Shown piece after piece: positions 32,223-45,911 of a stretch of 64,000 bases of DNA. The DNA is from Flavobacterium sp. 90 (GTDB lineage: Bacteria > Bacteroidota > Bacteroidia > Flavobacteriales > Flavobacteriaceae), in contig NZ_SMGE01000001.1 of the NCBI RefSeq assembly GCF_004339525.1, positions 434,001-498,000 on the forward strand. The letters run 5' to 3'. The notes under the pieces were generated by a model. It was given only the letters and a program-made list of their open reading frames with translations, was not told the DNA's origin and ran no database searches. The position numbers and the translations under genes are program-made. The stretch's first letter is position 1. Every line of letters begins with the position of its first letter.

Positions 32223-32675
32223 GTCATTGCGAGGAACGAAGCAATCTCATCCTCTGATTATTTATTGCTTTCTGAAAGAAAATCTATTGATTTGGATTTT
32301 CTGAATCAAATTTAGAATAATAATCTTTACAAATACACTATTGTAGTTTTAAAATCTAATTATTAAACACATCATTGATTAATTTTCTAATAAGATGTTA
32401 TTTTGAATAGAATTTAATTTTGAAACTGAGTGCCTAGCCCTGATAGAAGTGGAAAGCCCGGAGTAAAAAAGGCAAAAGTTTCTTGTTCTAAAAAAGCGAC
32501 CAGCGGAAGCTCTTTTTTGAACATTAGAAACTTTGCATTTTTTATGTCCCGATAGCTATCGGGATGAAGTGGATAGCAGGAAATAGCTCTTAAAAATTCC
32601 AAAAAATAAATTCCAACACAAACGCAAAACCAATACTAACAAACGGGATGAGATTGCTTCGTTCCTCGCAATGAC
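32223..32675. repeat. R3 arms: 30-base perfect inverted repeat bracketing the lrp/megL intergenic region
   Basis: Left arm 32223-32252 (GTCATTGCGAGGAACGAAGC...) and right arm 32646-32675 are perfect reverse complements over 30 bases. They enclose 393 bases that include the ncRNA candidate at 32433-32590. The arms lie 6 bases before the lrp start codon and 7 bases before the megL start codon. Other copies of the arm are at 62598-62621 and 62668-62695. Confidence 0.88.
32433..32590 (+). ncRNA. Candidate structured RNA, copy A (possibly Flavo-1-like)
   Basis: Begins CCTAGCCCTGATAGAAGTGG and ends GGATAGCAGGAAATAGCTC, sharing both ends with the elements at 39930 and 45911. A helix CCTG (32439-32442) / CAGG (32577-32580) closes the element, with AGC/GCT extending it. 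The central insert is longer here (about 110 bases) and ends with a hairpin TCCCGATAG-CTATCGGGA. A TAATTTTG box at 32415-32422 would start transcription about 5 bases before the element. Confidence 0.6.
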
Positions 32676-32682
32676 ATAAAAA

Positions 32683-33885
32683 ATGAAAAACTTTAATCCA
32701 GCTGATAAAATTCAGGACTTACAATATTTTGGGGAATTTGGGGGTGTGAATCCATCGATTTCTGATTCTTCGACTTATACATTTTTATCGGCAAAAACTA
32801 TGTTCGATACTTTTGAAGGTAATATGGAAGGCTGTTATTTGTATTCGCGCCATTCTTCGCCAAGTAATTTGTATCTGGATCAAGCTTTGGCAGCGATGGA
32901 AGGAACGGAAACTGCAAATGTATCGGCATCAGGAATGGGCGCAATTACGCCTACATTATTACAATTGTGCGGCGCTGGCGATCATATCGTTTCAAGCAGA
33001 ACAATTTATGGCGGAACTTATGCCTTTTTGAAGAATTTTACGCCTCGTTTTGGGATTGAAACAAGCTTTGTAGACATTACTAAACTTGATGTTGTTGAAG
33101 CTGCAATTACTGCAAACACGAAAGTTTTATACTGTGAAACAGTAAGTAATCCGTTATTAGAAGTTGCCGATATTGCTGGTTTGGCTCAAATTGCTAAAAA
33201 GCATAATCTGAAATTGGTTGTTGATAATACGTTTTCGCCGTTGTCGGTTTCTCCTGCAAAATTGGGTGCTGATATCGTGATTCATAGTTTGACAAAATAC
33301 ATTAACGGAAGCAGCGATACAGTTGGTGGCGTGACTTGTGCATCGAAAGAATTTATCAATTCGCTTAAAAATGTGAATTCTGGAGCGAGTATGCTTTTGG
33401 GACCAACTATGGATAGTTTGCGATCTGCTTCGGTGATGAAAAATCTTCGAACGCTTCATATTAGAATCAAACAACACAGTCATAATGCGCATTTTTTGGC
33501 AGATCAATTTGAAAATGATGGTTTAAAAACGGTTTATCCGGGATTAAAAAGCCATCCGAGTCATGAATTATACAAAACGATGATTAATCCGGAATATGGT
33601 TTTGGCGGAATGCTGACGATTGACGTTGGAACTTTGGCTAAAGCCAATGAATTAATGGAGTTGATGCAAGCGCGAAACCTTGGATATCTAGCGGTAAGTT
33701 TAGGATTCTACAAAACATTATTTAGCGCGCCCGGAACTTCGACTTCTAGTGAAATTCCGCTTGAAGAACAACACGAAATGGGATTGACGGATGGTTTAAT
33801 TCGTTTCTCGATTGGTTTGGATAATGATATTCAGCGTACTTATGAAATGATGAAGCAATGCATGGTGGAACTTGGAATTTTATAG
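32683..33885 (+). CDS. Cys/Met-metabolism PLP enzyme, methionine gamma-lyase-like
   Basis: A 400-residue fold-type I PLP enzyme of the Cys/Met metabolism family. The PLP lysine is Lys205 in HSLTKYINGSSD. Other conserved elements are YSRHSSPSNLYLDQALAAMEGTE, ASGMGAITPTLLQL, YGGTYAFLK, CETVSNPLLEVADI, VVDNTFSP and SLGFYKTLFSAPGTSTSSE. The family includes methionine gamma-lyase, cystathionine gamma-synthase and beta-lyase. A Lrp/AsnC neighbour in divergent orientation favours a catabolic methionine gamma-lyase role, but substrate specificity cannot be read from the sequence. The start follows the R3 arm by only seven bases. Confidence 0.9.
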   Translation: MKNFNPADKIQDLQYFGEFGGVNPSISDSSTYTFLSAKTMFDTFEGNMEGCYLYSRHSSPSNLYLDQALAAMEGTETANVSASGMGAITPTLLQLCGAGDHIVSSRTIYGGTYAFLKNFTPRFGIETSFVDITKLDVVEAAITANTKVLYCETVSNPLLEVADIAGLAQIAKKHNLKLVVDNTFSPLSVSPAKLGADIVIHSLTKYINGSSDTVGGVTCASKEFINSLKNVNSGASMLLGPTMDSLRSASVMKNLRTLHIRIKQHSHNAHFLADQFENDGLKTVYPGLKSHPSHELYKTMINPEYGFGGMLTIDVGTLAKANELMELMQARNLGYLAVSLGFYKTLFSAPGTSTSSEIPLEEQHEMGLTDGLIRFSIGLDNDIQRTYEMMKQCMVELGIL

Positions 33886-34544
33886 ATTTTAGCCCGCAGA
33901 TTTTGCTGATTTTACTGATTAACGCAGATTTAATTTCACATACTAAATCTGCTAAATCTGCGAGAGAAAATTTAGAAATCCAATAAAAGCAAAAGCCGTT
34001 CTTTATAAATAAATTTCATAGCGATTTACTAAAGATTTTTTTTACGCAGATTGGGCGGATTACGCTAGTCTATTATAGGAATCTATAAAACTGCTAAAAC
34101 TGCAGGATCTGCGCGAAAAAAAGTTTAGCCACTAATGGCACGAATTTTCACTAATTAGAAATCTTCAAAAGGAAAAATTCGAGAAAATTTGTGGAATTCG
34201 TGGCGAAAAAAAATACAGTTTCTTACAAAAACAAAACACTTCTTTATAAATAAATTTGCACAATTTTTTATTAGGTTGTTTAAATCCGCTGGAGTCTTCT
34301 CTAAGCGGATTTCTTGTTTTAAAAACATTACTCACTCATTTTCAAATAATTAAAAACATAATAAGTCAATTTATTAAAATAAACCAACAAATTCTGCGAA
34401 TAAAGTTTTTTTCTTCGATAATCATAAAAAGTTTTAAACACTAAAACGTTGTAGTTAATCAATTTCAGATTATTAAATAATTTTAACGTTAATAAAATAT
34501 ACTTTTAACAAAAAAATAACCACTTAACTAACTAAAATTGAATT
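33886..34544. repeat. Intergenic region rich in short palindromes, then AT-rich leader
   Basis: 33886-34210 contains mirror pairs GCAGATTTTGCTGATTTT / AAATCTGCTAAATCTGC (33891, about 33943) and GCCACTAATGGCACGAATT / AATTCGTGGCGAAAAAA (about 34128 and 34193) of the R4 type. 34211-34544 is AT-rich with no clear gene; a 62-codon frame there has no support. The promoter of the GH57 gene must lie here. Confidence 0.65.
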
Positions 34545-37500
34545 ATGAAAAAAACCTTACTTTTGCTTTATGCGTTACTAATTCCCTTTGCTTTTTTACA
34601 GGCACAGGTGAATACATCTTACTTATGGCACTTGCATCAACCCACGTATTGGGGAGATATCAGTAAAAAGAATCCGAACCGATATCAGATCGTAAAAGAG
34701 TCTCAGGATTTAAAAGTTTCCGGTGCTAATAATGACAAAAACGGACTGGCGCATCCTACAAATAATCTTGAAGAAATTTTTGGCACCGGTGATCGTGTTG
34801 CGGCTTATCAATTTGCACCAAAAAATGCTATTAATTCGATCAGGGATTTATCCAAAGCCGGAGCGCAAATCACGTACGGTGGTTCTTTGATGGAAAACGT
34901 CAACGAACTTGCTCAAGCCAATCAATGGGGATATTCTAATTCCTGGACGCAGAATATTAAAGATGCTAAAGGCTGGAAAACTTCGGGCGGATTTCCTCGT
35001 ATGGAAGTTGTTTCGTTTACAATGCATCACGCACTTTCGCCACTTTTGAGCGATGAAGCTCTGAAAAAAGAAATTAAAGCGCATCAATATTACAGCGCTC
35101 AATTATTTGGTTCTCATGATTCTAAAGGATATTGGCCCGCAGAATGTGCTTTTTCTGAAAGGATTATTAAAACCTTGACAGAATGTGGTATAGAATGGTC
35201 TGTTATTGCAAATAGTCACTTGTCCAGAACACTTGCCGATTATCCAATAAAATATGGTTCTGGCGGTACAATGTGTGATGTTCCTAATAAGGCAGATCAG
35301 GTAGAAACTACCGGAAACACATGGTTTTCAGCTCAAAAAGATGCTCGTGGCGGTCAGTTTGCCGTGCCGTATTCTTATCTTCCGTACAAGGCAAAATATG
35401 TTGATCCGGAAACAGCTCAGGAATACAAAATTACTGTAGTTCCTATGGCTGATTATGAGAGTTATGAGGATGGATATGCCACAATTGGTACTTCGCTGAT
35501 TGCTCCAATTGTTGCAAAAGCTTCGACTTCGCCAAGACCTCCTTTGGTATTATTTGCGCATGATGGCGATAATGCCTGGGGTGGAGGTTCTTCATATTAC
35601 AACGAATCGGTTACGGGATTTTCGCATGCATCTGCAGCAAATGGAAATATTCCGACTACAATTCCGCAGTATTTACAAGATAATCCGGTTCCGGAATCGG
35701 CAGTTGTGCACGTTGAAGACGGAGCTTGGGTAAATGCCGATGGTGATTTTGGACATCCACAATTTACAAACTGGTTGTGGCCATTTTTTGATCCGGTTAC
35801 GAAAAAATTCAATCCAAATGGCTGGACGGAAGATATGATGAATCAAGCGATTACAACTGCCGGAGAAAACCATGCAATCATGGCGGAGCAACTGGAAGGA
35901 AATAATCTTAGAATGAGCGAAATTGTAAATCCAACATCTGCTGTAAGTCCTGCCGAAAAAGCTTGGCATTTTTTAATGGCGGGTTACGATAGCGGAAATG
36001 CTTATTACGGTCTAGCCGAAGATTTAGAAATAAAAACAACTCTGGCCGTGAACCGATGTGTACAATTTGCAAAACCAACTTTGGATGCTCATCCTGGTGT
36101 AGATGCTACAAAACCGTCAGTTTTTATTCCGCAGCGATGGCCTTACAATCCGGGAGAAAAAGGATATGGAGCGCCTTATGCTTATAAAGATTTCCTGAAT
36201 TCGGCAGATTTTACGGTTTATACTTTTGCTTATGATGTAAGCGGAATTCAAAGATCTGAATTGAAATATCGCGTTGATGTCGATGGAAAAAATAGTCTTG
36301 CCTCCAATCAAAATGAAACTTATTCTGGTGGTGCCGAAGTTGGAAGCTGGGTAACATTGCCAATGACAGAAAGAGTTTTCCCTAAAGGGAATTTCACTAA
36401 CAATCCTCAAGCTGATTTGTACATGCTTCCTGATGTAATTGCCAATCAATATTCGGCTGAAATTGCTGGAATATCTGAGAAATTATTAGACTATTATGTT
36501 GAAGTTACCGATAAAAAAGGTAATGTGACTAAATCTAAAATTCAGCATGTTTGGGTTGGGAAAAATCTGGATGTTGCTCCAAAAATTGCTTTTACTCCAG
36601 ATACCAGCAATTCTACAACGGCAATCGATGTAACAATTACAGCAACTGATAGCACAGATCCGAAACCAAAATTGTATTATACAACTGATGGTTCTACTCC
36701 TACTCTTTCGTCTGCTTTTGTTGAATCTACCAAAACGCTGAATATTGCACAAACTACAACTGTTAAAGCATTTGCGGTAGACAAAGACGGAAATCAATCT
36801 GATATTGTTACTAAAACTTATACGATTGGAGCGATTCCTGAATTCACGGTTTATTTTAAAAAACCTGCCAATTGGAACTCAGCTGTAAAAATATATTACT
36901 GGTTGCCAACCGGAACTGCTCCTGCGGTAACCTATCCTGGTGTAGCAATGACGCAGGATTGTGGCGATTGGTATAAATATACTTTCCCTTCTACAGTAAC
37001 GGCTTCAAATTTATTATTTAATGACGGAACTTTAAAAACTGCCGACTTAAATGCTACTGGCGGAATTAAGTTTTATGACGGCGCCTGGTTAGCTTCCGAA
37101 CCTGCAAACAGATGTTCAACTGTAATAGCGCCTGATTTTACAATTTCGCAAGCAGGCGGATCTTTTACAACCGGAACAACTGTAAACCTGACTTTGACAG
37201 CAAACGTAAACACTTCGACAATTTATTACACCTTAGACGGAACTACGCCTACAACTGCTTCGGCATCTTCTGTTGGTTCTAAAACATTGGCGATAAACAG
37301 TACAACTACGCTTAAAGCTTTTGTTAAAAATGCTGCAGGAACAAGTTCTGCCGTTAAAACTGAAACGTACACTTTTAGTACGCCAACTACTTTTACGGTT
37401 TACTTTAAAAAACCAACCAACTGGAATTCGGCAGTAAAAATATATTACTGGTCACCAACCGGAACTGCTCCTGCGGTAACCTATCCGGGAGTTGCAATGA

Positions 37501-38468
37501 CTCAGGATTGCGGAGATTGGTATACCTATACTTTTCCGTCGACTGTAAGCGCAACAAATTTATTGTTTAATGACGGAAGCCTTAAAACTGCCGATTTGAG
37601 TACAACTGCAGGAATCAAATTCTACGATTCGGCTTGGTTGGGCGCAGAACCTGCCAATAGATGTCCTGTTATTGCTCCTGATTTTACAAATTCAAAATCA
37701 GGCGGAACTTTTACAACCGGAACTACCGTAAATGTTGTTTTGACAGCAAACCAAACAACTTCTACCATTTATTATACTTTAGACGGAACAACGCCAACTA
37801 CAAGTTCAGCATCTGCAATTGGGTCTAAATCATTTGCTTTTACTGCAAATACAACTTTAAAAGCTTTTGTAGTTAATACAAGCGGAGTTTCTTCAGCAAT
37901 AAAAACAGAAGTTTATACTTTTAATGCCGTTCCAACGCTTACGGTTTATTTTAAACCTCCAACAAACTGGACAGGAATTCCAAAAGTACATTATTGGAAT
38001 GCTGTTCCATCCGGAAGTGTTGCCAATACAACCTGGCCGGGAGTTGCAATGGTTGCCGATACAAATGGTTTTTATAAATACACCATTACCGGACCAACAT
38101 CGATAAATGTAATTTTTAATAATGGTTCAAGTGGTTCTGCAAATCAAACTGCCGATTTATTGAATAAAACAGATGGCTACTCTTATACTTGGGGTTCAAC
38201 AACTTCTAAACTGATTGCCGCTCCAACAACCGAAGAAGAAAGTTATGCCGTTCGTTTATTCCCAAATCCTGTAGATAATACTTTGCAGGTAAACTCAACG
38301 ATTCCGATAACGGATTATAGTATTATTTCGGCACAAGGAAGTATTGTTCAGGAAGGAAAATCGAATACCAATACCATCGATGTAAGTCGTTTGAGTACCG
38401 GACTTTATTTTATCACAATCCGATTGGAAAACGGAAAAGAAACCATGCAAAAAATTATTAAAAAATAA
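34545..38468 (+). CDS. Secreted GH57-like amylase with three CBM26 modules, three chitobiase-C-like domains and a T9SS tail
   Basis: A 1307-residue exoenzyme. Signal peptide 1-21 (ending LQAQ). The GH57-like catalytic part (about 22-640) has WHLHQPTYWGD with His31, GYWPAECAFSERII and FAHDGDNAWGGG. Three chitobiase/beta-hexosaminidase C-terminal-type Ig domains (LYYTTDGSTPT and IYYTLDGTTPTT) at about 674-762, 862-945 and 1045-1130 alternate with three CBM26 starch-binding modules (VYFKKPxNWNSAVKIYYW) at about 767-860, 951-1044 and 1133-1225. Residues 1234-1307 form a type A T9SS sorting domain (RLFPNPVDNTLQV..GKETMQKIIKK). CBM modules 1 and 2 repeat with a 549-base period. Likely role: extracellular or surface-attached degradation of starch-like glucans. 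Confidence 0.9.
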   Translation: MKKTLLLLYALLIPFAFLQAQVNTSYLWHLHQPTYWGDISKKNPNRYQIVKESQDLKVSGANNDKNGLAHPTNNLEEIFGTGDRVAAYQFAPKNAINSIRDLSKAGAQITYGGSLMENVNELAQANQWGYSNSWTQNIKDAKGWKTSGGFPRMEVVSFTMHHALSPLLSDEALKKEIKAHQYYSAQLFGSHDSKGYWPAECAFSERIIKTLTECGIEWSVIANSHLSRTLADYPIKYGSGGTMCDVPNKADQVETTGNTWFSAQKDARGGQFAVPYSYLPYKAKYVDPETAQEYKITVVPMADYESYEDGYATIGTSLIAPIVAKASTSPRPPLVLFAHDGDNAWGGGSSYYNESVTGFSHASAANGNIPTTIPQYLQDNPVPESAVVHVEDGAWVNADGDFGHPQFTNWLWPFFDPVTKKFNPNGWTEDMMNQAITTAGENHAIMAEQLEGNNLRMSEIVNPTSAVSPAEKAWHFLMAGYDSGNAYYGLAEDLEIKTTLAVNRCVQFAKPTLDAHPGVDATKPSVFIPQRWPYNPGEKGYGAPYAYKDFLNSADFTVYTFAYDVSGIQRSELKYRVDVDGKNSLASNQNETYSGGAEVGSWVTLPMTERVFPKGNFTNNPQADLYMLPDVIANQYSAEIAGISEKLLDYYVEVTDKKGNVTKSKIQHVWVGKNLDVAPKIAFTPDTSNSTTAIDVTITATDSTDPKPKLYYTTDGSTPTLSSAFVESTKTLNIAQTTTVKAFAVDKDGNQSDIVTKTYTIGAIPEFTVYFKKPANWNSAVKIYYWLPTGTAPAVTYPGVAMTQDCGDWYKYTFPSTVTASNLLFNDGTLKTADLNATGGIKFYDGAWLASEPANRCSTVIAPDFTISQAGGSFTTGTTVNLTLTANVNTSTIYYTLDGTTPTTASASSVGSKTLAINSTTTLKAFVKNAAGTSSAVKTETYTFSTPTTFTVYFKKPTNWNSAVKIYYWSPTGTAPAVTYPGVAMTQDCGDWYTYTFPSTVSATNLLFNDGSLKTADLSTTAGIKFYDSAWLGAEPANRCPVIAPDFTNSKSGGTFTTGTTVNVVLTANQTTSTIYYTLDGTTPTTSSASAIGSKSFAFTANTTLKAFVVNTSGVSSAIKTEVYTFNAVPTLTVYFKPPTNWTGIPKVHYWNAVPSGSVANTTWPGVAMVADTNGFYKYTITGPTSINVIFNNGSSGSANQTADLLNKTDGYSYTWGSTTSKLIAAPTTEEESYAVRLFPNPVDNTLQVNSTIPITDYSIISAQGSIVQEGKSNTNTIDVSRLSTGLYFITIRLENGKETMQKIIKK

Positions 38469-38495
38469 ATTCTTTAAACTTTATTAAGACAAATA

Positions 38496-38534
38496 AAAAG
38501 GCCGTTCCGAAATTATTTTCAGAACGGCTTTTCG
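38496..38534. terminator. Bidirectional terminator after the GH57 gene
   Basis: Stem AAAAGGCCGTTC / GAACGGCTTTT with one bulged G, flanked by A and T runs, between convergent genes. A near-identical hairpin recurs at 39713-39753. Confidence 0.85.
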
Positions 38535-38538
38535 ATTT

Positions 38539-39633
38539 TTAATTATGTTCAAGATGTTTGAAAGATTGCCAGTATTTGTCTTTATATATTTCGTAACTAA
38601 TCTCTAACTGATTATACTTCTTAATTATAGCATTTAAAACTTTTGTTGGTTTTCTAAATTCTTTACAAGCAAAATAGATTTCGCGTTTTCCCGCACTTGT
38701 TTCTCTTCCTACATTTAAATAACCATCTAAATCTTTAAGATCGAGCATTATTTCATCTTCTATATTATTCAATAATTGATAAGTTTCATTATCTGGCATT
38801 CCATTATTATTATTACTTCCATCAAATGGAATTTCAATACTCAAAACCCATGGATGAGAAGCTTTTTTATCCCAATCTAAAACCTCGCTATTAACTATCG
38901 CTAAAACAATTTGTCCATCTTTTGTTTTTGCTTCCAGACTCGAATAATTGTCATGTTCTGTATCATGCCTCACACCTTCGTATTTTTCAACAAATTCTTT
39001 TTCTCTCCAAATTAAATAATCTTTTAATTTTTCAATTGGAATTAATTCCTCAGAAGTATCTTTTTTACCAACGATCTTTAAACTATCTATTAATGTAACT
39101 GAATGCAATTCTCCTAAAAAATTATCTAGAAAAATATAAATACCATTAGTTTGCATTCCCTTTTCATCTTCGACAAAATCGTCATAGATAATCGTTAAAT
39201 CAATTTCATCTGGATAATCCTTATGTAAATTAGGATAAAACTTTAAATTGTCACTATTAAACTTAAATCCTCCCATATTAATGCTAACATCTTTAATATC
39301 TGATGCGGGTTTAAGAGCAGTAAACTTCCAACCTTTAATTATAGGAGCCGCATCAACTAATTCTTCAATTAAAAAAATATTTCTTATTGCACCATCAGGA
39401 GTTAAAATTAATTCTGCAGTATGTTCATCGAGCATTCCTGTCAAAAAATAAATTTCTTCATGAATCTCATCCAATTTTGGACTTAATTTCTTAAAGAAAT
39501 CCTGATCTATATTTTCACCATTTTGAACAGCTTTAAAAAACTCTTTTTCATGTTTTAAGAACCAATTCCAAAAATCACTGTACGTTACTATTGGAGATTC
39601 TTTTTTACCCAATATCTTATCTAGAAAACCCAT
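38539..39633 (-). CDS. DUF695-like unknown protein
   Basis: A 364-residue cytoplasmic protein without signal or membrane segments. The N-terminal part (YSDFWNWFLKHEKEFFKAVQ) and the segment ELHSVTLIDSLKIVG suit an uncharacterised domain. The C-terminal third (HPWVLSIEIPFDGSNNNNGMPDNETYQLLNNIEDEI and VGRETSAGKREIYFACKEFRKPTKVL) matches the DUF695 style, in which a conserved G-R-x-T-x-x-G..R-E-I-Y-F patch is found. Function unknown. It is convergent with the GH57 gene, and the terminator at 38496 serves both. Confidence 0.75.
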   Translation of the reverse strand: MGFLDKILGKKESPIVTYSDFWNWFLKHEKEFFKAVQNGENIDQDFFKKLSPKLDEIHEEIYFLTGMLDEHTAELILTPDGAIRNIFLIEELVDAAPIIKGWKFTALKPASDIKDVSINMGGFKFNSDNLKFYPNLHKDYPDEIDLTIIYDDFVEDEKGMQTNGIYIFLDNFLGELHSVTLIDSLKIVGKKDTSEELIPIEKLKDYLIWREKEFVEKYEGVRHDTEHDNYSSLEAKTKDGQIVLAIVNSEVLDWDKKASHPWVLSIEIPFDGSNNNNGMPDNETYQLLNNIEDEIMLDLKDLDGYLNVGRETSAGKREIYFACKEFRKPTKVLNAIIKKYNQLEISYEIYKDKYWQSFKHLEHN

Positions 39634-39712
39634 GCATCAAAAAAATTAAATTAAAATTTTACTATAGGCAAACCTAAGAAAAAGCTTTTAAAAACATAAT
39701 AATATATTTACA

Positions 39713-39753
39713 AAAAAAAGCCGTTCTGAGATTATTTTTCAGAACGGCTTTTT
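39713..39753. terminator. Terminator-like hairpin, twin of 38496-38534
   Basis: Stem AAAAAGCCGTTCTGA / TCAGAACGGCTTTTT with a 9-base loop and T run. It lies upstream of the DUF695 gene, not after any gene, so it may be part of a duplicated terminator block rather than acting on a local transcript. Confidence 0.65.
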
Positions 39754-39794
39754 GTTTTGTACCATTTTTAATGGATTAATCCTTCGCACAATCT

Positions 39795-39897
39795 TGTCAT
39801 TTCGACAAAGGAGAAATCACACAAGAAATTCTGCAACGAAAATCGCCAATCTTTGTCGAGCTTCTTGCGAAGATTTCTCCTTTGTCGAAATGACAAA
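39795..39897. repeat. Intact R2 palindromic repeat
   Basis: Arms TTGTCATTTCGACAAAGGAG and CTCCTTTGTCGAAATGACAA enclose a middle with TCTTTGTCGAGCTTCTTGCGAAG. This is the complete form of the repeat disrupted by the IS at 29192. A half copy ends at 40186 (CTCCCTCCGGTCGAAATGAC), and a degenerate copy is at 51739-51842. Confidence 0.85.
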
Positions 39898-39929
39898 CCA
39901 GACGAAAATATTATTATGAAAATGATTAT

Positions 39930-40010
39930 CCTAGCCCCGATAGTAGTGGAAATCCTTTTACTTTTTTCTTTAAAAAGTAAAAGATTGAAACGGATAGCGG
40001 GATTAGCTCC
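39930..40010 (+). ncRNA. Candidate structured RNA, copy B (possibly Flavo-1-like)
   Basis: Begins CCTAGCCCCGATAGTAGTGG and ends GGATAGCGGGATTAGCTCC. The closing helix is CCCG (39936-39939) / CGGG (39998-40001), a two-sided change from the CCTG/CAGG of the other copies. The central hairpin CTTTTACTTTTT / AAAAAGTAAAAG (39955-39966 and 39972-39983) is compact. 40011-40194 is a mixture of repeat fragments, and the 131-codon frame crossing this area is not a gene. Confidence 0.65.
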
Positions 40011-40194
40011 TAAAAAAAAGATTTGCTTTTATTATAGAGATCGAAATGACAAAAATGTGGGCAAAATCAGTGTGAATCTGCGTTTTCGCTATAGTGAATC
40101 AGTGTCATCCGCGTGCCATAAAAACACAGTAACCAATCGTTGTCGATCTTCTAGTGTGATTTCTCCCTCCGGTCGAAATGACAAAAAAACCATA

Positions 40195-40233
40195 AAAAAA
40201 GCCCTTCTAAGAATAATCTCAGAAAGGCTTTTC
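40195..40233. terminator. Terminator at the 3' end of the APC permease gene
   Basis: Stem AAAAGCCCTTCT / AGAAAGGCTTTT with A and T runs, about 34 bases beyond the permease stop on the minus strand. Confidence 0.75.
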
Positions 40234-40266
40234 ATTAATAATTTATAACTAATAATTTATAATTAT

Positions 40267-42195
40267 CTAAGCAATAGTATTCAGTTTACTATTTTTTCGA
40301 CTATAAGTAAAGTAAATAACCAATCCAAGTAGTAACCAAACTGTGAAGTAAATCCAGTTCCAAACACTTAATTCTGCCATCATATAAAGACAACAAATAA
40401 GTCCTAATAACGGAATTAAAGAAAGATTTTGTCTGAATGACCAAACTGCTAATCCAATCAAAACAAATATAAAAATCCACATTGGAATCTTGTGTTTGAA
40501 TAAACTGAAACCTGATTCGTATTTCAATGAATCATTGATTGGCAAACCTTTTACAACGGTAGCATATTTAGCATCGTCGTCTTGATATTGGCTTAATAAA
40601 TGCTCTAAATCTGATGTTTCGGCAGTTTTATTGTGAACATCAATACTTTCCAAATAATTGAAAACTTTCGTTGATTCTTCTTTATTCAAAGAGGTAATAA
40701 TTGTCGTTGCATCGTTTGTTTGCGCTTCATTATTGATAAAAGCCATTGTCGCTTTATTATTGAAAGCAAAAGCATAATACAATCCTGCAATCAATAAAAC
40801 AGGCATAATAAATTTAGAATTGATATAAGGCGTTTTAAACTTCCCTCTTGGAATATCTGTTTTATTCTGCAATACCAAAACTCCTGCACAAACCAATACA
40901 AAGGCAAACAAAGTCCCGATACTACATAAATCTGTTACCATTGTTAAGTTCAGAAACAAAGCCGGAACTGCAACCACAAAACCAGTTACAATTGTTGCAA
41001 AAGATGGCGTTTTGAATTTTGGATGCACCGTAGAAAATTTCTTTGGCAATAAACCGTCACGGCTCATACTCATCCAGATACGAGGTTGTCCCATTTGGAA
41101 AACCAACAAAACGCTCGCCATTGCAATTACGGCACTTACGGCAATAATTCCCGACATCCATTTTAGGTTTAATTTATCGAAAACAAATGCAAGAGGATCT
41201 CCAACATTCAGTTCGTTATAACGCACCATTCCGGTTAAAACCAAGGCAATGGCGATGTATAAAATAGTACAAATAATAATCGCCCACATCATTCCGCGTG
41301 GTAAATCACGTTGCGGGTTTTTACATTCTTCTGCCGTTGTAGAAATGGCATCAAAACCAATATAAGCAAAGAAAACAGCAGAAACTCCTTTTAAAACTCC
41401 GCTAACTCCATTTGGTGCAAACGGATCCCAATTAGCAGTATCAACATAAAATATACCAACCGCAATAACCAAAAGTACAATACAAAGTTTTACAACTACC
41501 ATTGCATTACTGGCGTTACGAGACTCTTTCATTCCTCTGTAAACCAATGCTGTAATTAAAATAATGATGAATAAAGCCGGTAAATCAGCCACAAAATGGA
41601 AAGAACCAATTGTTGGCGCCGTTGTCCAAGCTGTATAAGAAGCTTGTAAAGCAGTACTTAAATTTTCGAATGATTTTCCGCCTTGCATTAAAGCAGTAGC
41701 GTCTTTAAATCCGTTTGAAGCCGTTAGATAATCCATTTGAATCCACTGTGGCAAATGAATCCCGCCACTCTGGAGCAGTCCTGTAAAATAATCACTCCAC
41801 GAAATCGCGACCGTAATATTCCCTACAGCATATTCCATGATTAAAGCCCAACCAATAATCCAGGCGATAATTTCTCCAAAAGCAACATACGAATACGTAT
41901 AAGCACTTCCTGAAACGGGAACCATCGACGCAAATTCGGCGTAAGCAAAAGCAGCAAAACTACACGCAAGTGCTGTAAACAAAAACAAGAAAATAACAGC
42001 AGGACCACCATCTGCACTGGCTTTTCCGATAGTACTAAAAATCCCTGCACCAACAATCGCTGCGATTCCAAATGCAGTTAAATCCCTAGTGGTCAAATGC
42101 TTTCCTAATGCATTATGCCCATCTGCTTCATTTTTTGCAACTTGTTTCAGAATATCTTGTACCGTCTTTTTACGGAATAAACCTGATAATGCCAT
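40267..42195 (-). CDS. APC-superfamily amino acid permease (cationic amino acid transporter type)
   Basis: A 642-residue membrane protein with about fourteen hydrophobic helices. The N-terminus GKHLTTRDLTAFGIAAIVGAGIFSTIGKAS has the GAGIF signature of the APC fold in helix 1. FAYIGFDAISTTAEECKNPQRDLPRG is the classic CAT/YfnA loop. The extra stretch (about 480-575) between the last helix pairs is a periplasmic domain not found in short permeases (NNEAQTNDATTIITSLNKEE). It should import or exchange cationic or neutral amino acids. Monocistronic. Confidence 0.93.
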   Translation of the reverse strand: MALSGLFRKKTVQDILKQVAKNEADGHNALGKHLTTRDLTAFGIAAIVGAGIFSTIGKASADGGPAVIFLFLFTALACSFAAFAYAEFASMVPVSGSAYTYSYVAFGEIIAWIIGWALIMEYAVGNITVAISWSDYFTGLLQSGGIHLPQWIQMDYLTASNGFKDATALMQGGKSFENLSTALQASYTAWTTAPTIGSFHFVADLPALFIIILITALVYRGMKESRNASNAMVVVKLCIVLLVIAVGIFYVDTANWDPFAPNGVSGVLKGVSAVFFAYIGFDAISTTAEECKNPQRDLPRGMMWAIIICTILYIAIALVLTGMVRYNELNVGDPLAFVFDKLNLKWMSGIIAVSAVIAMASVLLVFQMGQPRIWMSMSRDGLLPKKFSTVHPKFKTPSFATIVTGFVVAVPALFLNLTMVTDLCSIGTLFAFVLVCAGVLVLQNKTDIPRGKFKTPYINSKFIMPVLLIAGLYYAFAFNNKATMAFINNEAQTNDATTIITSLNKEESTKVFNYLESIDVHNKTAETSDLEHLLSQYQDDDAKYATVVKGLPINDSLKYESGFSLFKHKIPMWIFIFVLIGLAVWSFRQNLSLIPLLGLICCLYMMAELSVWNWIYFTVWLLLGLVIYFTYSRKNSKLNTIA

Positions 42196-42299
42196 ATGTG
42201 ATTTTGCTTTTAAAATTAATATCTTTCAGTCTTTATGGTTTTATTTTGCAAATAATGTAAAAATTATCCTGATTTCAAACATATAAAGCGATTTTGTTT

Positions 42300-42689
42300 T
42301 ATTAGAATATTTTTTGCCCGCGGATTGTGCGGATTAAACTGATTAACGCGGATTTTTTTTGCCGCGAATTGCACAAATTTTCTCGAATTATTCTTTTGTC
42401 CGCGGATTTTACTGATCAAACGGATTGACGCTGGTTTATTTTTTTTGCCACAAATTACACGAATTTCCGCTAATTTTTTTGCCACTGATTAAAATGATTT
42501 TCACAGATTATTTTAATAAAAATCTGCTCAATCTGCAGAATCTGCGTGAAACAAAAATCTTTTTAATTCTTTTAATCTGTGGCTAAACTTTTTCTCCCGC
42601 AGATTTGGCAGATTAAGCAGATATTTTTTGCATAAAGATTAGAAACAAAAAATTCGTGCTCATTCGTGAAATTCGTGGCGAACATTTTT
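42300..42689. repeat. R4 mosaic repeat array upstream of the permease gene
   Basis: About 390 bases composed of short related units: CCCGCGGATTGTGCGGATT, TTGCCGCGAATTGCACAAAT, TTGCCACAAATTACACGAATT, CTGATTAAAATGATTTTCACAG and their mirror forms ATTCGTGAAATTCGTGGCG, TTTTAATCTGTGGCTAA, GAATCTGCGTGAAAC. The left half mostly carries one orientation and the right half the other, so the whole can fold into a long imperfect hairpin. No coding potential. 42196-42299 is AT-rich and unremarkable. Confidence 0.7.
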
Positions 42690-45596
42690 TTACTTTAAAC
42701 AGCTTTTCAAAATACTTACCGGATGTTGCGCTTCTCTACTCGTTCCGTCATAAATTTGATGACGGCAACTTGTTCCTGCTGCGGCAATTTTTACATCTTG
42801 AGCCGTTGCACGCACTTTTGGGAACAATGTATCTTCTCCCATTTGCATACTCACCTGATAATGTTCTTTTTCGTAACCAAAAGATCCCGCCATTCCGCAA
42901 CAACCCGAATTGTAAATTGTAACCGTATTATTGGTTGGTAAATTCAGCATTGCGAAAGTTGCTTCTACAGAACTCAAAGATTTCTGATGGCAGTGTCCGT
43001 GAATTTTGATTTCTTTCTTTTCATCCGAGAAAGAATCCGCTTTTATTTTTCCGTCTAAAATTTCTTTTTTAAAGAATTCCTCAATCGTGAAAGCACTTTT
43101 CGATACTTTTTCGGCACTTTCTTTATCATCCGCAAGACGTAAATATTCGTCTCTAAAAGTCAAAATTGCCGAAGGTTCGATTCCTATTAAAGGCGCTTTC
43201 GCGGAAATTAAATCCTTAAAAATCCCTACGTTTATATCTGCTATTTTTTTTGCTTCCTCCAGAAAACCTTTCGATAAATATGTTCTTCCGCTTTCTTCAT
43301 GATCTACGATTAAAACTTCATAACCTAATTTTGTCAATAATTCAAAAGCGTCGATTCCGATATTTACATCATAATAATTCGTGAATTCGTCATTAAACAA
43401 ATACACTTGTCCGTTTGGGAAATTATTATTTTGCGGTTTATGATTCTCGTACCATTTTTTGAAAGTCCTTTTCGCCAAAAGCGGAACTTGTCTTTCCGGC
43501 GCAATTCCCATGCTTTTTTTAACGAGAGATTGATTCGAAATAAAATTCGTAATTGACGGAAACAAACTTCCCATTTTATTCAATTTTGCATTGTGTGCAA
43601 AAATCTTATTTCGGGTCGAAAATCCGTTTGCTTTTTGGTATTGGTATAAAAATTCTGCTTTAAGAGTTGCAACATCTACGTTACTCGGGCATTCGCTTGC
43701 GCAGGCTTTACAGCTCACACACAACTCAAAAACTTCGTATAATTCTTTCTGATCAAACTTGTTTTCTTTTTCCGAATAAGTCAAATATTCACGTAACGCA
43801 TTGGCTCTCGCACGCGTCGTTTCTTTTTCATTTTTGGTCGCACGATAACTCGGACACATTGCTCCTCCTGCCGATGGCAATTTTCTACAATCACCAGATC
43901 CGTTGCATTTTTCGGCAGCGCGCAAAATTCCTAAACTGTCTGAGAAATCCTGAAATGTCTTAATATCCGGTTCTACTCTGCCCGAAACTACACGATGATT
44001 TTCGTCCATTTTCAAAGCATTTACAATCTTCCCGATATTCAAAACCGAATTCGGATCAAACGCTAATTTGATTCTTTTCAGCAATTCATAATTCGTTTCG
44101 CCAATCATAAACGGAATAAACTCTCCGCGCACAATTCCGTCGCCATGTTCACCGCTTAATGAACCTCTATATTTTTTAACCAAAATCGCAACATCAGTCG
44201 CAATCGTTCTGAACAATTTTAAGTCAGATGTTTTCTTCAAATTCAAAACCGGACGCAAATGCAATTCTCCCGCTCCAGCATGTGCATAATATATTGCCTC
44301 TTGTCCGTGACGCAACATCATTGCCGAAAATTCTTCAATATAAGCAGGTAAATCCCTCAACTCAACCGCTGTATCTTCAATAGAATCGGCTGCTTTATTG
44401 TCTCCAACAATACTTCCTAAAAGTCCAAGACCGGCTTTTCTAAGTTCGTTTACCTTTTCAATATCGGCACCATAAATTTTTACAAGCGCATATCCAAAGT
44501 TATTTTTTTCTAAATCTGCCATTAAAGCATTCGCCTGATTTTCGGCATCTTCAGCATCATGCGAAGCGACCTCAAACATCATAATCGCTTTGGGTTCACC
44601 AACCAAAAAGAATCTGTTTTTTGACTGTTCCCGATTCGTTTTAGTACAATCCAAAATCGTGTCGTCGATCATTTCTGCTGTATACAAATGATGTTTCATT
44701 GCCACTACAACAGATTCCAGCGATTCCTGAATACTGTGATAATGCGCCACAACCATAATATTATTGGCAGGCGGCAAATCATCAACTTTCAACGTAATTT
44801 CATAAGTAAAAACCAGCGTTCCTTCACTTCCGCAAAGCAGTTTTCCAACGTTAATTGTTGGTTCCGTTCCTCCAAACAAATCCGATTTTAACAGAATATC
44901 AACCGCATAACCCGTATTTCGTCTGTGAATTTCAGGTTTCGGAAATTCTTTTATAATTTCGTCTTGTGTCGCTTTTACCGAAAGTTCGTCGTAAAGACTT
45001 TTATATATTTTATTTTCTAAAGTATCCCCTTTGGTTTTTTCAATAAATTCAGCCGAAGTCAATTCCTTAAAAACTACTTCAGAACCATCGCTCAAAATTC
45101 CTTTGATTTCGACAATTTTATCGCGCGTTACGCCATACCGAATCGAAGTAGTTCCCGAAGAATTATTCCCAACCATTCCGCCAATCATACAACGATTTGA
45201 AGTCGAAGTATTCGGACCAAAAAATACACCGTGAGGTTTCAGAAATAAGTTCAATTCATCGCGAATAACACCAGGCTGAACCGTAACCGTTTTTTTAATC
45301 GGATCAAAATTCAAAATCTTGGTAAAATTCTTCGAAACATCGACTACAATTCCGTCACCAACCGTTTGTCCCGCAAGTGAAGTTCCCGCAGTTCTTGGCG
45401 TAATCGAAATATGATGTTTCCCCGCAAACTTGATTAGTTTACTAATATCTTCTATCGTTTTAGGCACGGCAACCGCTTTTGGTCGAATTCGATACACCGA
45501 AGCATCCGTCGAATAAAGCGTTTTATGAAGATCGTCGTATAAAAGTGTTCCTTCTAAGGATTCTGATAATTGTTCTAACTCTTTAACTATTGACAT
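42690..45596 (-). CDS. FAD-linked oxidase with C-terminal Fe-S/CCG domain (YdiJ/GlcD-GlcF-like fusion)
   Basis: A 968-residue fusion. The N-terminal FAD_binding_4 domain has PRTAGTSLAGQTVGDGIVVD (about 85-104) and GVFFGPNTSTSNRCMIGGMVGNNSSG, followed by FAD-oxidase C (LSGEHGDGIVRGEFIPF). The C-terminal third carries a ferredoxin-type cluster CVSCKACASECPSNVD and a cysteine-rich CCG domain (HGHCHQKSL, NSGCCGMAGSFGYEKEHY). Such proteins oxidise D-2-hydroxy acids (D-lactate, D-2-hydroxyglutarate, glycolate) and feed electrons to quinone or a carrier. I start at the ATG at 45596 (MSIVKELEQL); the open frame extends 62 codons further but that part is repeat-derived. Confidence 0.9.
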   Translation of the reverse strand: MSIVKELEQLSESLEGTLLYDDLHKTLYSTDASVYRIRPKAVAVPKTIEDISKLIKFAGKHHISITPRTAGTSLAGQTVGDGIVVDVSKNFTKILNFDPIKKTVTVQPGVIRDELNLFLKPHGVFFGPNTSTSNRCMIGGMVGNNSSGTTSIRYGVTRDKIVEIKGILSDGSEVVFKELTSAEFIEKTKGDTLENKIYKSLYDELSVKATQDEIIKEFPKPEIHRRNTGYAVDILLKSDLFGGTEPTINVGKLLCGSEGTLVFTYEITLKVDDLPPANNIMVVAHYHSIQESLESVVVAMKHHLYTAEMIDDTILDCTKTNREQSKNRFFLVGEPKAIMMFEVASHDAEDAENQANALMADLEKNNFGYALVKIYGADIEKVNELRKAGLGLLGSIVGDNKAADSIEDTAVELRDLPAYIEEFSAMMLRHGQEAIYYAHAGAGELHLRPVLNLKKTSDLKLFRTIATDVAILVKKYRGSLSGEHGDGIVRGEFIPFMIGETNYELLKRIKLAFDPNSVLNIGKIVNALKMDENHRVVSGRVEPDIKTFQDFSDSLGILRAAEKCNGSGDCRKLPSAGGAMCPSYRATKNEKETTRARANALREYLTYSEKENKFDQKELYEVFELCVSCKACASECPSNVDVATLKAEFLYQYQKANGFSTRNKIFAHNAKLNKMGSLFPSITNFISNQSLVKKSMGIAPERQVPLLAKRTFKKWYENHKPQNNNFPNGQVYLFNDEFTNYYDVNIGIDAFELLTKLGYEVLIVDHEESGRTYLSKGFLEEAKKIADINVGIFKDLISAKAPLIGIEPSAILTFRDEYLRLADDKESAEKVSKSAFTIEEFFKKEILDGKIKADSFSDEKKEIKIHGHCHQKSLSSVEATFAMLNLPTNNTVTIYNSGCCGMAGSFGYEKEHYQVSMQMGEDTLFPKVRATAQDVKIAAAGTSCRHQIYDGTSREAQHPVSILKSCLK

Positions 45597-45831
45597 TTTT
45601 GCTGAATATGATTTCACAAAAATACTTATTTTTTTTAGGTTCACAGGCTCAAAGTAACAAAGGTTCAGAGGATTTCTTTTCTTTGGCTTTCCTGAGTTGA
45701 AATTTGGATTTTTTCTATCGGAATTCATCCCAAGTGTCGCCCTGAGCGTAGTCGAAGGCTTATGAAACTTAAACTCGAACAAACAAAAATTGGAATTTGG
45801 AATTTATTTATTGGAATTTCATTTTTTATTT
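45597..45831. repeat. Intergenic region with a CCTGAGCGTAGTCGAAGG-type short repeat
   Basis: Contains the motif CGCCCTGAGCGTAGTCGAAGG (45738-45758), a widespread flavobacterial intergenic motif by appearance, and low-complexity AT-rich DNA (TTTGGAATTTATTTATTGG). No gene. Confidence 0.5.
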
Positions 45832-45911
45832 GAAGCTATTTCCTGCTGTCCTTCCAATCTTTTGTGCCGAACCCCGGCACAAAAGGATTTTCCCTCCCAT
45901 CAGGGCTAGGA
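45832..45911 (-). ncRNA. Candidate structured RNA, copy C (possibly Flavo-1-like), minus strand
   Basis: Read on the minus strand it begins CCTAGCCCTGATGGGAGG and ends CAGCAGGAAATAGCTTC. Closing helix CCTG / CAGG as in copy A. The central hairpin CTTTTGTGCCG / CGGCACAAAAG has a different sequence from copies A and B but the same position, so both sides of the helix have changed together. It lies just downstream of the unknown gene cluster ending at 45941 on the same strand. Confidence 0.65.

Follow-up and report, generated by a model that had tools for sequence, protein, structure and literature searches.

Flavo-1 (RF01705) is an already known family of folded sequences, and we find more than 100 copies of it between the genes of Flavobacterium sp. 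90, three of them in the 64,000-nucleotide stretch of DNA analysed here (the window). The best explanation of the sequences is an intergenic unit of about 78 nt, one strand of which folds into a stem that contains a bulge and symmetric internal loops rich in purines, together with a variable hairpin. The placement of the copies and the way in which they change argue against independently expressed small RNA genes, and two readings remain live, one in which Flavo-1 is a passenger RNA element and one in which it is a folded single-stranded DNA site. We tentatively favour the second, with confidence that falls short of even: Flavo-1 may be a dispersed element that works as a folded single-stranded DNA site and is recognised by a predicted factor. 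The data that support this reading are a single folding strand, sites and orientations that are kept between species, the lack of an orientation rule or a promoter signal, replacement of the inner hairpin, and copy numbers that vary in the genus between none and over 100.

Background

The Flavo-1 motif dates from a 2010 study (Weinberg et al. 2010) and is catalogued as a small RNA. The table of that paper places the motif in Bacteroidetes and enters it as RNA "y", cis-regulatory "n" and switch "n" (PMC2864571). In the portions of the literature available to us (PMC2864571, PMC9723704, PMC9029176, PMC6006769, PMC3733652), we found no functional assignment for it. An initial annotation of the window, made from its letters, had proposed that three elements form a conserved structured RNA, perhaps of the Flavo-1 class; as a whole, this interpretation is partly supported by the comparisons below.

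Three copies in the window

All three elements are present in the sequence at the places and on the strands described. With their associated features, they are:

32415..32422, + strand: -7-like box TAATTTTG, a sequence upstream of copy 1
32432..32590, + strand: Flavo-1 copy 1, long-arm subtype, outer core CCTAGCCCTGATAG...GGATAGCAGGAAATAGC
32547..32564, no strand: 18-bp palindrome TCCCGATAGCTATCGGGA, a sequence within the arm of copy 1
39929..40008, + strand: Flavo-1 copy 2, inner-loop type GGAAATCC/GATTG
45835..45911, - strand: Flavo-1 copy 3, inner-loop type GAAAATCC/GATTG, hairpin GTGCCGGGGTTCGGCAC

The shared start, CCTAGCCC, begins at 32433 (+), 39930 (+) and 45910 (-); the end that the annotation gave for copy 3 (...GCTC) needs correction to GGAAATAGCTTC (...GCTTC). 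Its two-sided change in the closing helix is there (CCTG/CAGG in copies 1 and 3, CCCG/CGGG in copy 2), and so are the central hairpins that differ with both arms changed (CTTTTACTTTTT... versus CTTTTGTGCCG...). Assignment to Flavo-1 was borne out when the proposed Rfam check was run: against RF01705 (gathering score 42), copy 2 reaches 81.1 bits (E 2.3e-16) and copy 3 62.3 bits (E 3.3e-11), and copy 1 falls below the cut-off at 29.5 bits (E 2.2e-4 in a 401-base search). The copies share with the published family the covariance-model match, the paired core, the occurrence in Bacteroidota and the conserved ends TAGCC...GAT and AGC.GGA. Copy 1 differs in its score and in its apical arm of about 110 nt, against 30 in the Rfam model. 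We place copy 1 in Flavo-1 on the basis of the shared outer core and its score of 36.4 bits with a covariance model of our own, built from 30 copies of the window's genome (copy 2 among them), with which copies 2 and 3 score 89.0 and 76.2 bits.

A long arm like that of copy 1 was seen by eye at four more sites in the genome (L069, L083, L142 and L151), and our model recovers all of these copies except L151. The inner 16 bp of the palindrome occur 18 times in our sample of the genome, five times inside Flavo-1 matches. Other repeats lie close by. Copy 2 is enclosed in a larger stretch with inverted ends, TTGTCATTTCGA (39794-39805) and TCGAAATGACAA (40041-40052), and similar flanks were seen by eye at several other copies in the genome; another repeat, CATTGCGAGGAACGAAGCAATCTCATC and its reverse complement, stands as an inverted pair on either side of copy 1 (32225-32251 / 32647-32673).

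A conserved fold, on one strand

Folded singly and compared with shuffled sequences, copy 2 (z -2.87) and copy 3 (z -2.55) fold better than expected; so do their complements (z -2.19 and -3.29), and only copy 2 shows the whole consensus in its best single-sequence fold. Aligned across many species, 72 distinct rows show pairing in 97.5% of cells and changes on both sides in 17 of the 20 pairs. Their covariation score of 0.501 compares with 0.105 or less for slid partners, so that the covariation beyond chance anticipated by the annotation is found. Among 110 distinct sequences of the window's genome, 18 of the 20 pairs covary (0.527 versus at most 0.100 when slid); both alignments were fitted to a model of the same structure, which favours that structure. 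The two sides of the inner loop are linked as well: in 155 distinct cores, a GAAATCC-type strand goes with GATT in 94 and [CT]ATCC goes with GATA in 52, with five crossed and four unclassified. Apical loops are of few kinds among distinct hairpins, the commonest being TCTTT (27), GGGTT (15) and CCTTT (9).

What pairs as wobble on one strand is mismatched on its complement. In a model-free count over apical stems (148 usable of the 155 distinct cores), we observe 32 G.T/T.G against 4 A.C/C.A combinations, or 21 against 4 with one count per hairpin, and this excess of G.T over A.C identifies the annotated strand as the folding strand. The model-fitted alignments give G.T and A.C counts of 74 versus 37 (A2) and 10 versus 10 (A3). 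There, 31 (A2) and 9 (A3) of the A.C cells belong to a single pair next to the bulged C, a position at which the alignment of the two loop types is ambiguous; when this pair is left out post hoc, the counts become 74 versus 6 and 10 versus 1, in agreement with the model-free count. The fold is thus real and the data favour one strand, and the wobble evidence fits RNA as well as single-stranded DNA.

Copy number and distribution

The window's genome has at least 107 Flavo-1 matches at E <= 0.001, 102 of them above the cut-off; this is a lower bound, as 150 of 1872 first-look candidates were scored. Matches occur in 26 of 40 genomes comprising this one and its relatives. The search of the genus that the annotation had suggested found at least one match in 140 of 150 genomes (own included) and none in the other 10, two of which are less than 90% complete. 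By hand count, about 90 genomes have at least 29 matches and the others 1 to 28. Within the genus, copy number varies between zero and over 100. A draw across the class gave a match in 109 of 295 genomes (own included), 69 of them above the cut-off, with matches counted up to 15 per genome. None of 14 named control genomes has one.

A second architecture and other variants

In some copies, the TAGCCC end is replaced by GCGTNAGGG or similar, and the element continues past AGCCCGA, adding a closing helix and, by eye, a third arm. We hand-picked 22 such matches and could anchor 19. A perfect five-base downstream partner for the outer arm is found in 17 of these 19, across five kinds of arm sequence (GCGTT, GCGTG, GCATG, GCGCG, GGGTT), compared with a mean of 4.4 and a maximum of 10 when partners were shuffled among copies (500 shuffles); several of the 19 are near-identical and hence not independent. 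In L316, the third arm itself contains the first partner found, and the same bases recur further on. The arrangement looks like a three-way junction around the same core. It was seen in 6 of 12 class-wide loci examined, extends beyond the 76-position Rfam model and is undescribed in those parts of the Flavo-1 literature that we found.

In five copies of the window's genome (G000), an additional segment, TGCTTYGCCAGTTCG...TTTCAGGCTCGGGTGC, replaces the AGC of the 3' strand:

L131, at 5089176
L074, at 868070
L095, at 1984303
L097, at 2364421
L109, at 3460577

The 5' half of the element lacks a 3' half within 80 bases in 15 of 155 matches. We considered genes lying between half-elements and saw none; by eye, most of the 15 are complete elements whose 3' end is altered or whose arm is long.

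Sites persist between species while inner hairpins are replaced

The closest relative among the genomes searched (G118) is 94% identical at the serC-serA locus, a name that we infer from Pfam matches (an aminotransferase and a hydroxyacid dehydrogenase gene). Among its 108 listed matches we examined 96, of which 77 mapped onto the sample of the window's genome and 19 did not. At 71 of the 77 mapped sites the counterpart is filled in the same orientation, a proportion that favours shared sites because the sample is centred on copies of the window's genome and 19 of 96 sites were unmapped; six are not filled by listed copies. Viewed in reverse, 68 of 109 copies in the window's genome have a filled counterpart among the 96 sites. 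Four of the six non-filled sites could be aligned and none is a clean insertion, one of them holding an apparent decayed copy in the window's genome; a fifth spans a probable long-arm copy.

For 15 of 29 distant loci, an adjacent gene has a match in the sample at 50% identity or more, and 10 of the 15 loci lie at a copy of the window's genome on the same side and in the same orientation. One candidate was rejected: at L059, an element stands beside a homologue of a gene near window copy 1, but side and orientation are not both the same. We read the serC-serA spacer at 30 loci, the best matches among 149 genomes that have one: 24 contain the element, in one case truncated (G129), and six lack it (G092, G015, G068, G111, G064 and G094). 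Three species share an extra insert in one of the internal loops at this same site (L185 in G067, L195 in G081, L196 in G075). The serC-serA query matches one contig of the closest relative twice (G118:C1, 422561-424360 at 94% and 2323939-2325711 at 89%), each time with a Flavo-1, which reflects either a duplicated locus or a mixed assembly.

We could parse 56 of the 71 orthologous pairs, covering 54 distinct copies of the window's genome. On average, the two ends of the element are 0.96 and 0.97 identical and its inner part 0.86 (median 0.91); the 45-base flanks average 0.79 and 0.80. Part of the high identity at the ends is to be expected, as parser and model both require these letters; the inner part is free of this effect. 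In 18 of the 56 pairs, the inner identity is 0.46 to 0.81. The hairpins of both species pair at 9 or more of 10 positions in 13 of these 18 (for example at G000:1581494, 5522532 and 6472247), and the other five are other subtypes or parser misreads; four of the 18 lie beside rRNA operons, whose orthology is uncertain and which evolve in concert. At three or more sites (1258095, 3328599, 3520433), the difference is confined to the hairpin tip. Eight hairpin motifs were looked for in the sample, and four are exclusive to Flavo-1 there (12/12, 5/5, 4/4 and 3/3); the others fall inside Flavo-1 in 4/5, 5/18, 0/2 and 0/4 occurrences. For most of the 18 divergent pairs we found no identical donor hairpin elsewhere in the same genome (some hairpins were read too long by the parser), and we therefore only infer copying between units.

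Placement relative to genes and promoters

By our own longest-ORF gene calls, 108 copies divide into 34 sense and 32 antisense within codirectional gene pairs, 26 between convergent genes, 12 between divergent genes and 4 overlapping predicted frames. The copies thus have no strand preference relative to genes. Given spacer length, divergent spacers are depleted (11 versus 21.6 expected, p 0.03). In F. psychrophilum, according to the sections of a transcriptome study that we consulted (PMC9723704), Flavo-1 matches lie indistinctly sense or antisense of transcribed regions and many are outside them, while several coincide with 5' transcribed regions.

Further associations were sought in the sample. 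A copy lies upstream of 16S in all six rRNA operons (six by layout, four of them located by Rfam) and downstream of 5S in five of the six; as the sample was chosen around copies, operons that lack one would not show. None of 37 tRNA or tmRNA predictions is within 600 bases of a copy, and 18 neighbouring proteins examined have no common function. Orientation with respect to the replication fork is not clearly biased (46 of 109 copies co-oriented, p 0.125), with origin and terminus inferred from the skew of the sampled stretches. An encoded small peptide was rejected: a few copies are open across the element by hand inspection, but the start is not conserved (at position -14, G in 37% and A in 33% of 93 copies).

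The main competitor of the DNA reading, which we consider less likely, is a promoterless passenger RNA element that would act in any transcript containing the annotated strand, as a 3'-end stabiliser, a processing site or a protein-binding site. The single-strand polarity with wobble, the purine-rich internal loops, the depletion in divergent spacers and the F. psychrophilum copies at 5' transcribed regions are all consistent with it. However, sense and antisense copies are equally common, yet the orientation of a site is kept between the two species; antisense copies would have to be inactive or to act on antisense or read-through RNA. The neighbouring proteins, with no function in common, also speak against such a role.

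Free-standing small RNA genes, which is Rfam's reading (type Gene; sRNA) and agrees with the RNA entry in the 2010 table, fare worse. The annotation had noted a -7 box, and TAATTTTG is indeed present before copy 1, but it is not a feature of the family: TAnnTTTG has 7 occurrences upstream of 93 copies, fewer than in either control (21 downstream, 19 upstream on the antisense strand), so that no such promoter signal is enriched upstream of the set. Weak conservation extends about 21 bases upstream of TAG (93 of 107 copies with the anchor). More than 100 copies in a genome without a common upstream promoter, together with a F. psychrophilum transcriptome that is not consistent with such genes, make this reading improbable. 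The annotation's proposal that the RNA is expressed from its own start is not supported, with neither a set-wide promoter signal nor a strand preference relative to genes, and here the present data argue against the published account of Flavo-1.

Search for a mover or a binding factor

A dispersed, intergenic, folded repeat with many copies resembles the REP elements associated with RAYT/TnpA-REP transposases (subclass 2.6 in Bacteroidetes, in the portion of PMC6006769 available to us, which describes that subclass with such flanks). REP or MITE-like DNA moved in trans by a Y1/HUH transposase (RAYT) would be further suggested by the probable long-arm copy at L151, about 200 bases downstream of the genome's RAYT-like gene, on one side only (our own model misses this copy). 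Against this, all seven RAYT-like loci inspected carry their own repeats beside the gene, and a Flavo-1-like element was seen only at L151; these loci were judged by eye over flanks of at most about 450 to 550 bases (L167 is truncated upstream), with the Flavo-1 model scanned over one of the seven. The five Y1 loci of the window's genome have no Flavo-1 above the cut-off. Nor do Y1 counts track Flavo-1 copies across 40 genomes (own included): G004 has at least 88 copies and G011 has 44, both without Y1, and G022 has 15 copies with 8 Y1. Flavo-1 thus differs from REP/RAYT systems in that it does not bound the inspected RAYT-like genes and its abundance does not follow Y1 genes. On account of the other repeats at the RAYT-like loci and of the Y1 counts, we reject a RAYT/REP origin; with no clean insertion among the four aligned non-filled sites either, there is little chance that Flavo-1 is mobile DNA of this type. 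The RAYT-like Y1 transposase itself (L151 6699-7247, 182 aa) has HIH and YIHQNP motifs and its own flanking repeat, GCTAGCGCGAGCGTCCCGCTCGTGCC, and resembles subclass 2.6 as far as the consulted part of PMC6006769 describes it.

Two other families were tried and set aside. Reverse transcriptase (RVT_1) does not track Flavo-1 in 40 genomes, with four matches in the copy-free G020 and none in the copy-rich G001, G003, G008 and G013. GIY-YIG nuclease is present with and without Flavo-1 and is therefore uninformative. No binding factor thus emerged from the three families tried (Y1_Tnp, RVT_1, GIY-YIG). We observed five tandem GIY-YIG nuclease frames with nearly equal scores and 350-base spacing at G022:C1:181321-182930, and a similar set in G007 (C24).

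Finally, replication template switching that perfects quasi-palindromes, so that arms co-change without selection for folding, might explain whole hairpins that differ at orthologous sites with near-identical flanks, and is very improbable: it should erase mismatched internal loops, which persist in two linked types, the wobble is asymmetric between strands, and mean identity is higher in the inner part than in the flanks.

Discussion

If Flavo-1 is a folded single-stranded DNA site, as we favour, the annotated strand would fold when exposed as single-stranded DNA in replication, repair or transcription bubbles, and a trans-acting protein would recognise the loops. The inner hairpin may be renewed by copying between Flavo-1 units or by paired substitution, with the outer core staying put. 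Several observations count against the DNA reading: no binding factor emerged from the three families tried, a lagging-strand process might show the fork bias that is not clear here, the wobble excess is smaller or absent in the model-fitted alignments as counted, identical donors were not found for most replaced hairpins, and the depletion in divergent spacers also fits a 3'-end RNA role. A more speculative form, which we regard as rather unlikely, is that the copies are host-domesticated, homing-like folded single-stranded DNA sites, whose dedicated factor would recognise the internal loops of one strand and repeatedly rewrite inner hairpins from other units while core and position stay long fixed, and whose loss would cost a lineage all of its sites.

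The idea has a precedent in print. For STAXI, a covarying motif of the same 2010 study, a single-stranded DNA function was considered, with the authors favouring RNA in the part of the paper that we consulted (PMC2864571). Flavo-1 shares with it covariation and a possible single-stranded DNA function; STAXI is a repeated pseudoknot near DNA-handling genes, whereas Flavo-1 is a single, dispersed unit with no gene theme in the loci examined.

The comparisons presented here turn a family described in 2010 and listed as a small RNA into a set of testable statements: the annotated strand folds, there is no set-wide promoter, sites and their orientation persist, the inner hairpin is replaceable, and 10 of 150 genomes of the genus have no match. 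If the folded single-stranded DNA reading is true, an "RNA" family defined by covariance would have to be reclassified, and there would be a mechanism to look for behind a repeat that is abundant in these bacteria.
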